This document shows positions 2 to 5,046 of a DNA stretch of 6,070 nucleotides, in pieces; the stretch's first letter is position 1; each line of letters begins with the position of its first letter. Origin of the DNA: an uncultured bacterium (GTDB lineage: Bacteria; CALINM01); NCBI GenBank assembly GCA_938045315.1, contig CALINM010000113.1:1-6070 (forward strand), read 5' to 3'. Below the pieces are notes generated by a model. It made no database searches. It was given only the letters and a program-made list of their open reading frames with translations, and was not told where the DNA came from. The translations under genes and the position numbers were made by a program.

Positions 2-2110
2 TTTTTACAGAATGAAATAAATAATTTTAGGTGGCTTGGAGAGGGGATCATAGAAAAACTTATTGAAAGGGGGCTTAAAACTTATCGTGATGTTCTATTT
101 TTCCTGCCCAGCAAATATGTGGATAAGAGATTTATGATAAAAATATCAGAATTGAAACCTGGTATGAAGGCATATTTTAGAGGACGTATAATGAAAGTTG
201 AAAACTGGGGGAATAAAGGATTTCTAAATCTAAAAGGGAATGGACTGTTAGTGGAGGTATCAGATGGAACTGGGGTTATTGTGCTGAAATGGTTTCATAA
301 ACCACCAATATTTATAAGAAATCTTCTTAAAAAAGATCAAGATTTACTTATATTTGGTAATGTGGAAGTCTTTAGGGGTCAAATGGAGATACATCATCCA
401 GAAATCGAAAAATATGATGTTAACAGGAACAAAGAAATTGATGGGGGATACAATATATATCCTCTATATTCTGGACTGCCTGAAGGTGTAAGTGAAAAGT
501 TATATAGAAAAATGGTTTTTAATATAGTAGTTCAGGGTAAAGAAATTCTAAAAACATTAGTACCTTATCCTTTGAAATATGATTTAAATCTTGTTGAATG
601 GGGTGATGCATTATTTCATATTCATTTCCCTAAGGAAGATTTTAATCATGAAAAGTTTGAAAATTACAGAAGTCCCTATCATTTATCGCTGATTTATCAG
701 GAGCTTTTTCTTTTATTTTCCTTATTTGCAGTCAAAAAACAAGATGTTCAAAGGATAAATATAACACCCCTAAAGTTTTCTGGTGAGATGGCAAAAAGGG
801 TTTTAATAAATCTTGGATATAAACTCACTGATGCACAAAAAAGGGTACTTAAAGAAATAAAACAAGATCTTGAAAAACCATACCCTATGCAAAGATTGTT
901 GCAGGGTGATGTTGGCTCTGGTAAAACGATAGTAGCTTTTTTAGCGTCTCTATTTGTCATAGAAGCGGGTAAACAAGTGGCAATAATGGCACCAACTGAA
1001 ATTTTAGCGGAACAACATTTTATTAATTTTAAAAATTTAATTAAAGATAGGAATTTAAGGATTTGTTTGCTCACGTCATCATTGAAGAAAAAAGATAAAG
1101 AGTCAATATTGGATGATATTAGGAATGGGAGATACGACATAATTGTAGGGACACACGCTTTAATTCAAGAGAATGTGGATTTCAAAAATTTAGGCCTTAT
1201 TATTATTGATGAGCAGCATCGTTTTGGTGTTGAACAAAGAAACACACTTGTTAAAAAAGGAGATATTTTACCCCATGCATTGTTTATGACAGCAACACCA
1301 ATCCCTAGAACTCTTGCTATGACTATACATGGTGACTTAGATTTATCAATTATTGATGAAATGCCACCGGGACGCAAAGAGATAAAAACGATGGTATTAC
1401 CAGAGGGGCATAGAGATAGGGCTTTTAATATACTAAGTGAGGAACTTAAAAAAGGTAGACAGGCATACATAGTTTATCCCGTAATAGATGAAGATAATGC
1501 TTTAGAATTAAAGGCGGCCACAAAGATGTACGAACTAATAAAAGAAAAGTTCAGTGAATATAAAGTAGGTTTACTCCATGGGAGATTAAAAGCAGAAGAA
1601 AAAGAAGAAATTATGGATTTATTTAAAAAAAATGAGATATCCATTCTTGTTTCAACAACAGTTGTTGAGGTGGGTGTAGACGTGCCAAATGCTACTGTAA
1701 TGATAATTGAACATGGAGAAAGATTTGGGTTATCTCAATTACATCAATTACGAGGTAGAATTGGTAGAGGGAGTGAAGCATCAATTTGTATTGTTCTTGT
1801 GGATACAAAAAAGCTAAGTAATAAAGCAAGGGAGAGATTAATTTTTTTCAGGGATAATTTAGATGGTTTTAAATTAGCAGAATTTGATTTGAAAATGAGA
1901 GGTCCAGGGGAGTTATTGGGAACTAAACAATCGGGACTCCCAGAATTTTCAATTTTTGATTTGTTACGAGACGCTGGTTATGTGCAATATATGAAAAACA
2001 AATCAGAAGAATTACTTAAAAAAGTTGATAGTGATTTATTTCTTTCTCAAATTATAAGTATTACAAAGATTTATTTTGGAGAAAAAAAAGATTTTTTGAA
2101 CGCTGGATAA
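2..2110 (+). CDS. recG: ATP-dependent DNA helicase RecG (5' partial)
   Basis: RecG is a superfamily 2 DNA translocase that regresses stalled replication forks and processes branched DNA and R-loops. Numbered from the first visible codon (nt 2), the protein shows the end of the N-terminal helical region with FLPSKYVDKR (about 34-43), an OB-fold wedge domain (about 50-145), Walker A GDVGSGKT (302-309), the DEQH Walker B box (403-406) followed by RFG, the motif TATPIPRT (about 430-437), LLHGR (524-528), the motif VI segment QLRGRIGRG (582-590) and the RecG-specific TRG region (about 615-645). The frame is open to the left edge, with no ATG, GTG or TTG before nt 119. The GTG at 119 would cut through the conserved wedge entry, so the real start lies upstream of the window. 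The visible 702 residues already match a full-length RecG (E. coli 693), so only a short N-terminus is probably missing. The C-terminus is complete. The next gene has its own promoter, so recG is probably not part of the biotin operon. Confidence 0.97.
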   Translation, partial: FLQNEINNFRWLGEGIIEKLIERGLKTYRDVLFFLPSKYVDKRFMIKISELKPGMKAYFRGRIMKVENWGNKGFLNLKGNGLLVEVSDGTGVIVLKWFHKPPIFIRNLLKKDQDLLIFGNVEVFRGQMEIHHPEIEKYDVNRNKEIDGGYNIYPLYSGLPEGVSEKLYRKMVFNIVVQGKEILKTLVPYPLKYDLNLVEWGDALFHIHFPKEDFNHEKFENYRSPYHLSLIYQELFLLFSLFAVKKQDVQRINITPLKFSGEMAKRVLINLGYKLTDAQKRVLKEIKQDLEKPYPMQRLLQGDVGSGKTIVAFLASLFVIEAGKQVAIMAPTEILAEQHFINFKNLIKDRNLRICLLTSSLKKKDKESILDDIRNGRYDIIVGTHALIQENVDFKNLGLIIIDEQHRFGVEQRNTLVKKGDILPHALFMTATPIPRTLAMTIHGDLDLSIIDEMPPGRKEIKTMVLPEGHRDRAFNILSEELKKGRQAYIVYPVIDEDNALELKAATKMYELIKEKFSEYKVGLLHGRLKAEEKEEIMDLFKKNEISILVSTTVVEVGVDVPNATVMIIEHGERFGLSQLHQLRGRIGRGSEASICIVLVDTKKLSNKARERLIFFRDNLDGFKLAEFDLKMRGPGELLGTKQSGLPEFSIFDLLRDAGYVQYMKNKSEELLKKVDSDLFLSQIISITKIYFGEKKDFLNAG

Positions 2111-2135: not shown

Positions 2136-2167
2136 ATGTCAACCAGCAAATTTATTAAGGTTGACAA
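2136..2167. promoter_or_regulatory. Putative BirA (biotin repressor) operator upstream of bioB
   Basis: An inverted repeat ATGTCAACC-N14-GGTTGACAA has a perfect 8-bp core (TGTCAACC at 2137-2144, GGTTGACA at 2159-2166). It closely matches the known BirA operator form TTGTAAACC-N(14-16)-GGTTTACAA. The right arm completely contains the -35 hexamer of the bioB promoter, so bound BirA-biotinyl-AMP would exclude RNA polymerase. Position directly before bioB supports the call. It is a site inferred from pattern and context; the birA gene itself is not in the window. Confidence 0.8.
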
Positions 2168-2189
2168 TTTATCAAGAAATTTGTATTTT
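2161..2189 (+). promoter_or_regulatory. Sigma70-type promoter of the bioB operon
   Basis: A consensus -35 box TTGACA (2161-2166), a 17-bp spacer and a -10 box TATTTT (2184-2189) lie just upstream of bioB. The predicted transcription start is near 2196-2197, giving a leader of only about 16 nt before the ATG at 2213. The -35 box overlaps the right arm of the BirA-like operator, which gives a simple repression mechanism. No terminator-like hairpin separates it from recG, so some read-through from recG is possible. Confidence 0.75.
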
Positions 2190-2202
2190 AATTTAAAAAA
2201 AT

Positions 2203-2208
2203 GGGGGA
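2203..2208 (+). promoter_or_regulatory. Ribosome binding site deciding the bioB start
   Basis: The run GGGGGA can pair with the CCUCC of 16S rRNA using one G-U wobble and stands 5 nt before the ATG at 2213. The in-frame ATG at 2201 has only an A/T run before it and would lie about 5 nt from the predicted transcription start. The ATG at 2213 is therefore preferred. Confidence 0.6.
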
Positions 2209-2212
2209 TTTT

Positions 2213-3196
2213 ATGGAGAAAGCAATTCTTTTAAAAGAAAAAGCTATTCAACATAAAAATTTAAGTTTTGATGATGCCATGTTTCTTTATAATTTTGGTA
2301 TAGAACATCCTTTTTTGTTGTTCGGGCTGGCGTCGGAAATCAGAGAATACTATAAAGGCAAGAAGATAAATATGTGTGGTATTATAAATGCTAAATCTGG
2401 TAGATGTGGAGAAGACTGTAAATTCTGTGCGCAATCAGCACATTATGATACGGGAGTGCCTGTATATTCACTCTGTAGTGCGGATGAAATTATTAAGAAA
2501 GCTAAAGAGGCAAAATCCGCTGGCGCACATATGTTTGGAATTGTAACAAGTGGAACAAAAATCTCATCTGAAAACGAATGGGAAGAAATTTATAAAGCTA
2601 TTGAAGGAATTAATAGTCTTGGTATCAAGGCATGTGCTTCATTGGGGTTATTAGATGAAAGTAGGGCATTAGAATTGAAAAAAAGAGGACTTTTCAGATA
2701 TCATCATAACTTAGAAACTTCTGAAAGTTTTTTCCATAATATTTGTAGTACTCACAGTTATAAAGAAGATATACAAACTGTTTTATCAGCGAAAAAGGCT
2801 GGGCTTTCCACATGTAGTGGAGGCATAATCGGTCTTGGGGAAAGAATAGAACATAGAATTGAAATGGCTTTAACATTAAGAGAGTTAGATGTAGACTCTG
2901 TACCTGTGAATATTTTGAATCCTATTAGAGGTACTCCCCTTGAAAATGCTATACCTCTTCATCCTGTGGAAATTTTAGTCACAATCTCTATTTTTAGATT
3001 TCTTTTACCCGATAAAGATATTAAACTATGTGGTGGAAAGGAAAAAAATTTAAGACAGCTTCTACCCCTAGGGATTGTGGCGGGATGTAATTCTTTAATG
3101 ACAGGAAATTATTTAACTACAGCTGGGAGAGATACACAAATGGATATCGAGATGATAAGAGATTTAGGGATGGAAGCAGTTTATGAGGAGGTATAA
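2213..3196 (+). CDS. bioB: Biotin synthase BioB, anaerobe-type auxiliary cluster variant
   Basis: BioB is a cytoplasmic radical SAM enzyme that inserts sulfur into dethiobiotin to make biotin. Taking ATG 2213, it has 327 residues (331 if ATG 2201 is used); the family is usually 320-350. The radical SAM cysteines form CX3CX2C at C65, C69 and C72 inside [13 protein letters not shown]. Family motifs [16 protein letters not shown] and [14 protein letters not shown] follow, and [13 protein letters not shown] lies near the end. Counting against E. coli BioB, the auxiliary [2Fe-2S] ligands Cys128 and Cys188 are kept (C141, C201), but Cys97 is replaced by G109 and Arg260 by K271. Extra cysteines occur at C273 (KLCGG) and C292 (AGCNS). 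This fits the type II BioB of obligate anaerobes, which has been reported to carry a different auxiliary cluster; the assignment is inferred. The gene has its own promoter and BirA-like operator. Its TAA overlaps the next ATG by one base, so translation is probably coupled. Confidence 0.95.
3185..3192 (+). promoter_or_regulatory. Strong Shine-Dalgarno inside the end of bioB
   Basis: GAGGAGGT is close to the full anti-16S match and sits within the last codons of bioB, with 4 nt between GGAGG and the ATG at 3196. It supports efficient, coupled translation of the downstream J-domain protein and fixes its start. Confidence 0.75.
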
Positions 3197-5046
3197 TGAT
3201 ATTTCAATTAATAAAAACTCTTTATGTGGGGAATGATAATAAACATTTTGAATTAATTAGAAATAATTTGAAAGATTTAATACAAATCAGCCATTTTATT
3301 AATGATTCAATATCTTTCCTTGAGTTGCCACAAAGGAATTTTGAGATAATACTTGTTGATGGAGATTATAAAGATCCCCTTGCAATGATTGAAACAATAA
3401 GAAATTCTTATACTCATAATATCGAACCATACATTATTCTTCTCATAACACCAGAAAGGTTAAAAGATATAAAAAGAAAGTTTTCCGTGAGAAATTATCC
3501 TGATGAACTTTCTTATAAAAATACCAATACCACGCATCTGAGAAATCAGATTATTTTTAGTTTTAATTGCAAAAGAGAATTTAAAGATAATCTTAGAAAA
3601 AACTATAATGTAATAAATGGGAGTCTCGAGAAGGAACCATATGGAAAACTCTTATTTTATCTGTACAGGGGGAATTATACAGGAAAGCTTATAGTGGAAA
3701 GTTCAATTGATAAGGGTATTTTTTACTTTTATGATGGCTTGCCTATTGATATTAAGTTTAATAGATTGCAGTGTACATTAGGTAGAATGTTGTTGCGAAA
3801 GGGTATTATATCAGAAGAAACTTATTTAAAGTCCCTTGAACTTATGCTACAAAAAAAAATTAGGCATGGCGAAGCTTTACTCGAAATAGGGGCGATTAAG
3901 CCTTCTGAATTGGTGGATTATATCAATATTCAAAAAAGAGAAAAATTACTATTCTTTTTTGCTCGAGATAAGGGAAGTTATAAAATTATAAAAGAGAATG
4001 TTGATCCTGATCCAATAGTGCCAAAAATAGATATATTTTCTCTAATATACGATGGGGTTAAGTATTTTGCTCCTGTAAAGTATCTTGAAGAAAAGTTTTT
4101 AAAAGAAAAAGATAGGTATATAGCATTGACAGAAAATTTTGCCGTTTATAAAGAAAAATTTCCCTTTGATAATCTAGAAACGGAGTTTCTTGGTTTTCTA
4201 AATGAACATCCGAAGTTAACTCAGATACTTGAAAAAACAAGGCTATCAATATTAGATGCCCTTAAAATCTTAGAAGTTTTAGCCCTCTGTGAGATGATTA
4301 AATTTGTATTAGATTATGATACTGCGAAAAATCTAAGTGAATCTGCCAATCCAAAAATAATTCAGCTAAAGGAAGCTATACTAAGAGATTATTCAAGTAT
4401 GGAAAATAAGAATTATTATGAAATTCTTGGAGTGGGCAGAGATGCGTCATCCGAAGAAATAAAGAAATCATATTTGAGACTTGTTAAGAGCTATCATCCT
4501 GATAAATTTGCTCATCTTCCCTTAGATAAGGATATGATACAGAAAATAACTCAAATCTTCAATAAGATACAGACAGCATACGATACTTTATCGGATCCAC
4601 AAGCGAGGGCAAGTTATGATGAAGCACTTGATGCGCCAGATTTAAAAGAAATGATTGATCAAACAGAATCGATAGTTAATGCAGAGATTGCCTTTAAGAA
4701 AGGAGAGATTCTTTTAAAAAGTAGAAAGTATAATGAGGCAGAAAGATATTTTAGAGAAGCGGTATTATTAAATGGTAAGGAACCAGAATATTTATTGGCT
4801 CTTGCTATTTCACTACTTTATCAAAAGAATAAAAACTTTGATGAGTATGATGTAGAATCAAGGCAATTGCTTGAGAAAGCAATTTACATGAACCCTTACT
4901 TTGACAAAGGTTACTTTTATCTTGGAATTCACAATAAATTAAGGGGTGAAAATCAGGAGGCAGTTTTATGTTTTAAAAAAGCCCTTTCTATAAATCCCGA
5001 TTATAAAGAAGCCATGATGGAGTTAAAAAGCCTTGAAAAGTTTTAA
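3196..5046 (+). CDS. Receiver-like / DUF4388 / J-domain / TPR protein
   Basis: This 616-residue protein has no transmembrane segment or signal peptide that I can see, so it is probably cytoplasmic. Domains in order: a receiver-like domain (about 5-122) with D14, D55, T85 and K108 at CheY-like spacing (CheY D13, D57, T87, K109); a DUF4388 (PatA N-terminal type) domain beginning [16 protein letters not shown] (about 141-270), including [13 protein letters not shown] and a second similar repeat that recalls the GspE N-terminal fold; a possible winged-helix segment (about 328-372); a J domain (about 405-476) with NYYEILGV and an intact HPD at 434-436; and about three TPRs (about 497-612). There is no DnaJ zinc finger or G/F-rich stretch, so it is a class III-type J protein. 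The HPD motif implies it can stimulate a DnaK-family chaperone; the TPRs suggest a protein partner. Similar architectures are known from delta-proteobacteria-like genomes, but I know of no assigned function. It is translationally coupled to bioB and overlaps bioF, which implies co-expression with biotin synthesis. No direct role in biotin synthesis is visible. Confidence 0.85.
5019..5024 (+). promoter_or_regulatory. Ribosome binding site for bioF within the upstream gene
   Basis: GGAGTT lies 8 nt before the TTG at 5033. It is the only reasonable Shine-Dalgarno sequence close to a start that keeps the conserved BioF N-terminal helix, and it supports a TTG start overlapping the upstream gene. 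Confidence 0.45.

Follow-up and report, generated by a model that had tools for sequence, protein, structure and literature searches.

In all three genomes of its rare phylum that were available to our genome search, a bacterial biotin operon carries, between bioB and bioF, a gene for a J-domain protein in which a DUF4388 (PATAN) domain precedes the J domain and TPRs follow it. The reading that we favour on balance is that a PATAN-J-TPR co-chaperone was captured in the BirA-repressed operon of the phylum's ancestor, that its link to biotin is mainly regulatory or historical, and that its client lies outside the pathway. A direct role of this protein in making biotin is possible and unproven, because its relatives in other phyla lie in no biotin operon that we found. 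The parts themselves are known; brought together in a BirA-type biotin operon, they did not turn up in the literature searched. There, with subscription journals mostly absent, no biotin operon was described as including a J protein, and DUF4388 was named in a single paper, without DnaJ.

Gene layout and predicted biotin control

The window, that is, the whole 6,070-nucleotide stretch of DNA that was analysed, belongs to one of these genomes (G000; the other two are G001 and G002), and all of its genes lie on the + strand (Table 1). Its contig stops within bioF, and the order of bioA and bioD is therefore taken from G001 and G002. An earlier note, made from the window alone, had placed a receiver-like/DUF4388/J/TPR gene inside a biotin operon. 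The open reading frame is real, with a single full-length orthologue in each of the other two genomes, sharing 76% and 46% identity with it, and the description of the gene as locked inside the operon holds for the phylum: bioB, J, bioF, bioA and bioD follow in a row in G001, and the G002 contig, which begins just upstream of J, reads from the end of bioB through J, bioF and bioA to bioD, with the larger part of bioB on another contig. The order bioB-J-bioF is thus kept in 3/3 genomes, followed by bioA-bioD in the two where this can be seen. BioF of the window, being truncated, scores 380 bits over 329/365 positions of TIGR00858 (cut-off 426).

The overlap with bioF that the note regarded as probable, which assumes a TTG start, recurs exactly in all three genomes, and its single-nucleotide overlap with bioB stands for G000 and G001 and gives way to a gap in G002. 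These overlaps, an operator and promoter ahead of bioB, and the lack of any terminator-like site between 2050 and 6070 agree with the note in pointing to co-transcription and probable translational coupling of the J gene with its neighbours.

The operator, a palindrome of 32 bases in which 9-base arms enclose a spacer of 14 bases, is found upstream of bioB in 3/3 phylum genomes. It agrees with the published BirA consensus, TTGTAAACC-N14/15-GGTTTACAA, as given in one account (PMC545781), the consulted passages of which describe an N14 operator of nearly identical sequence upstream of bioB in delta-proteobacterial BirA-repressed operons (Geobacter bioB) and mention no J-protein gene among the biotin genes. 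When the 1.86-Mb G000 genome was searched for TGTNAACC-N13..17-GGTTNACA, the sole exact match was the operator upstream of bioB, and the sites in G001 and G002 are each one base off this pattern. TTGACA, the -35 within the right arm of the G000 operator, recurs at the corresponding position in both of these genomes, and a promoter-like pair with 17-nt spacing is present in G000 and G001, in a region where promoter-like sites overall occur at chance number. Matches to BirA with a DNA-binding domain were obtained in G001 and G002 (42.6 and 45.5 bits; TIGR00122 cut-off 70), and the sequence in G002 looks like a complete ligase carrying an HTH. BirA was not found in the G000 assembly (92% complete, 244 contigs), which we count against our reading. 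Because a BirA operator precedes bioB in all three genomes, the J protein is very probably expressed under biotin control and apparently switched on by scarcity of biotin, much as the earlier note had supposed when it let expression follow biotin demand.

Table 1. Features of the window (nucleotide positions) and of the J protein (residues)
Feature	Position	Strand	Basis or remark
recG (end)	window 5' part, upstream of bioB	+	G000
BirA-type operator ATGTCAACC-N14-GGTTGACAA	2136..2167	+	upstream of bioB; arms and N14 also in G001, G002
sigma70-like promoter TTGACA-17-TATTTT	2161..2189	+	10/12 matches; -35 inside operator right arm
bioB, biotin synthase	2201..3196	+	TIGR00433 388 bits, cut-off 225; Radical_SAM and BATS
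J-domain protein ORF, 616 aa	3196..5046	+	Pfam domains; full-length orthologues in G001, G002
bioB stop/J start overlap, 1 nt (TAATG)	3196..3196	+	same in G001; 13-nt gap in G002
J end/bioF start (TTG) overlap, 14 nt	5033..5046	+	exact in G000, G001, G002
bioF, cut by contig end	5033..6070	+	TIGR00858; then bioA-bioD in G001, G002
J protein, receiver-like	residues 1-125		
J protein, DUF4388/PATAN	residues 141-289		Pfam
J protein, helical part	residues 290-404		
J protein, J domain	residues 405-478; HPD 434-436		Pfam
J protein, TPR	residues 479-616		Pfam

Domain architecture of the J protein

The J domain of the window protein matches PF00226 with an E value of 2.7e-19 (69.5 bits, cut-off 27.8) and an intact HPD motif, DUF4388 is matched at E 3.1e-8 (34.1 bits, cut-off 25) and lies above the cut-off in both orthologues too, and TPR models also exceed their cut-offs. 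HPD is invariant in 9/9 homologues in an alignment that spans DUF4388, J and TPR. The protein is most likely a targeting co-chaperone whose J domain is predicted to stimulate the cell's DnaK. DnaK is canonical and full-length in G000 and G002 and present as fragments in G001, and every strong full-length Hsp70 match in the phylum is of the DnaK type. Two more specific assignments were tried and rejected: HscB (TIGR00714, 20.4 bits against a cut-off of 46.75; a second HscB model, 27.2 against 189) and c-di-GMP binding through an MshEN-like stretch at residues 195-244 (NF053729, 21.6 bits against 38). The helical insertion of DUF4388 (3778-3927) weakly resembles the MshE-type c-di-GMP motif, for which the homologue in G289, a genome of another phylum, scores 34.9.

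The N-terminal part is more divergent. It has no Pfam match to Response_reg (PF00072), a comparison with PDB sequences returned nothing meaningful, and an AlphaFold model from the single J sequence is too poor to judge a receiver fold (mean pLDDT 44). An hhalign match of 106 columns spans the whole domain and is weak (E 0.013, probability 3.4%). We call this part receiver-like because of that weak profile match and because the G289 homologue carries a clear Response_reg domain at the same place; judged from sequence, it is likely a relict, degenerate receiver. The likely phospho-acceptor position holds an Asp in two phylum genomes and another residue in G002. Between G000 and G002, identity reaches 57-60% in the J and TPR parts, the best conserved in the phylum, and 33% in the receiver-like part, which is among the least conserved.

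Proteins with the order DUF4388-J-TPR also occur in other phyla (for example in G016, G022, G152 and G289), at 25-28% identity and with an invariant HPD, although most of them, unlike the window protein, lack the N-terminal receiver-like part. The cyanobacterial PATAN response regulators PatA, PixG, PixE and LsiR resemble the window protein in joining DUF4388/PATAN to a receiver; none of them is known to contain a J domain or TPR.

Conservation of the locus and neighbours of its homologues

The operon is preceded by recG in G000, by a DAHP synthase gene in G002 and, in G001, by an Ig-like reading frame, and downstream are TonB and murI genes in G001 as against unrelated genes in G002. Both outer flanks differ while J stays inside, and the operon therefore travels as one unit, J included. 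The comparison of gene order in close relatives that the earlier note had proposed thus found no scattered orthologues, the place among the bio genes being kept in 3/3. That the gene stayed as both flanks changed, though a gene of this size could have been lost, was counted against its being a passenger. As a background we used tight same-strand pairs (gap <=60 nt, first gene with an orthologue in the G002 sample) from part of G001: the neighbour was kept in G002 in 53/63 of them (84%), a rate that describes one genome pair and a contig sample and in which 3/63 pairs belong to the bio operon itself. The in-phylum conservation of J's place is close to this background, and J beside bioF is an ordinary case, since tight neighbours are kept at this rate anyway; in-phylum conservation as proof of function is ruled out by it. 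A plasmid search with the bioB-J DNA gave no match. In G002, the start of DUF4388 is repeated around a run of unreadable residues (C78, L090 1276-3078), probably an artefact of an assembly gap.

Beyond the phylum, the J protein is matched at 1e-25 in 22 genomes (25/386 when the phylum is included). A bioB match is present in 17/22, in no case beside the matched J homologue, and is missing in the other 5. No bio operon was seen around the outside homologues, in up to about 9 kb per side at 20 places and in shorter flanks at others; their neighbours, by sequence reading, include ilvE, a homocysteine methyltransferase-like gene and an antiporter/coaE-like pair, among others. In G022, G169 and G307, all of one family, the PATAN-J-TPR gene is followed, after a short gap on the same strand, by a branched-chain aminotransferase gene (by sequence reading) and then by an ion-channel-like gene (L069, L070, L072); the PATAN-J-TPR family can therefore adjoin metabolic genes without a common theme. 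Another pairing was seen in G289 and G151, both sampled genomes of their phylum, where a second J-TPR gene adjoins the PATAN-J-TPR gene on the same strand (L067 7634-10667 and L081 8517-10732).

One neighbourhood does touch on biotin. In G152, from an unrelated phylum that, like that of G289, was represented by two genomes in the search, the PATAN-J-TPR gene (C6, L071 9083-12203) lies divergently beside a true bioF (TIGR00858 462 bits, cut-off 426), about 0.4 kb away, with bioB on a different contig. This may be chance or a hint of a biotin link, and we counted it against the passenger interpretation. Because the outside homologues are not in bio operons and tight pairs are kept at the background rate, the placement in the phylum can be explained without any biotin function; the biotin-specific function entertained in the earlier note is not supported, some of the homologues' genomes also having given no bioB match.

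Possible clients and meaning

According to the capture reading, a PATAN(DUF4388)-J-TPR gene would have been taken into the biotin operon of the phylum's ancestor, and bioB-J-bioF-bioA-bioD would be transcribed from a promoter overlapped by the BirA operator. The J protein would probably be translated by coupling with bioB and bioF, and would be made when BirA releases the operon. Its TPRs, perhaps together with the PATAN and receiver-like parts, would pick a partner protein, on which the HPD-bearing J domain would stimulate the cell's DnaK.

BioB is an Fe-S enzyme and, in E. coli, binds the Hsp70 HscA. Because of this binding, help to BioB is the best functional rival, and BioB is, if a link to biotin exists, a better candidate client than a carboxylase. 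The J protein would be a dedicated co-chaperone that recruits DnaK to load or rebuild the Fe-S clusters of BioB or to refold it once it has turned over, replacing HscB/HscA, a role we regard as unlikely. It adjoins bioB, with which it is probably translationally coupled, and the DnaK-type proteins would be the Hsp70 partner at hand in this phylum. A complex of HscA with BioB that enhances cluster assembly in vivo is reported in the title of Reyda, Fugate and Jarrett 2009 (PMC2964542, reference 31). HscB, the J co-chaperone of Fe-S assembly, would then share with the window protein both a J domain and BioB as a common client, but the window protein scores far below the HscB cut-offs, its PATAN and receiver-like parts resemble signalling rather than Fe-S assembly, and the outside homologues do not accompany bioB even where the genome has it.

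This likeness to signalling proteins raises the possibility, to our minds a doubtful one, of a PATAN-type effector that acts through DnaK on the machinery of type IV pili or of polarity, comparable to the regulators of cyanobacterial phototaxis, and that stands in the operon by chance. PatA, PixG, PixE and LsiR have links to heterocysts or type IV pili, and the connection of cyanobacterial PATAN response regulators with type IV pili is documented (PMC7690835). Three further DUF4388 loci are present in G000 and more in G002, each phylum genome encodes several PilB/PilT/GspE-type ATPases, and an intact receiver precedes PATAN in the G289 homologue. Set against this, the receiver of the window protein is degenerate and less conserved than J and TPR, in G002 a residue other than Asp stands at its likely phosphorylation site, and no pilus gene was seen near J in the three phylum genomes. 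An assembly factor for a biotin-dependent carboxylase, as the earlier note had suggested, is highly improbable: predicted co-regulation with biotin synthesis is all that speaks for it, whereas the surroundings of the J copies viewed showed no carboxylase gene, homologues are present in genomes with no bioB match, and predicted expression peaks when biotin, and hence holo-carboxylase, is low.

We give little credence to the most novel claim that could be made, namely that the biotin pathway of this phylum relies on a J protein encoded in its own operon and controlled by BirA, which would direct DnaK to BioB or to some other enzyme of biotin synthesis. If it were true, chaperone supply would be matched to biotin demand. 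A functional J protein of this kind would amount to a co-chaperone that is specific to one pathway and controlled by a vitamin, and the rebuilding of BioB after each sacrificial turnover would become testable in a new setting. If the gene is instead a passenger, as the capture reading would have it, then operon capture can put a signalling-type co-chaperone under vitamin control.
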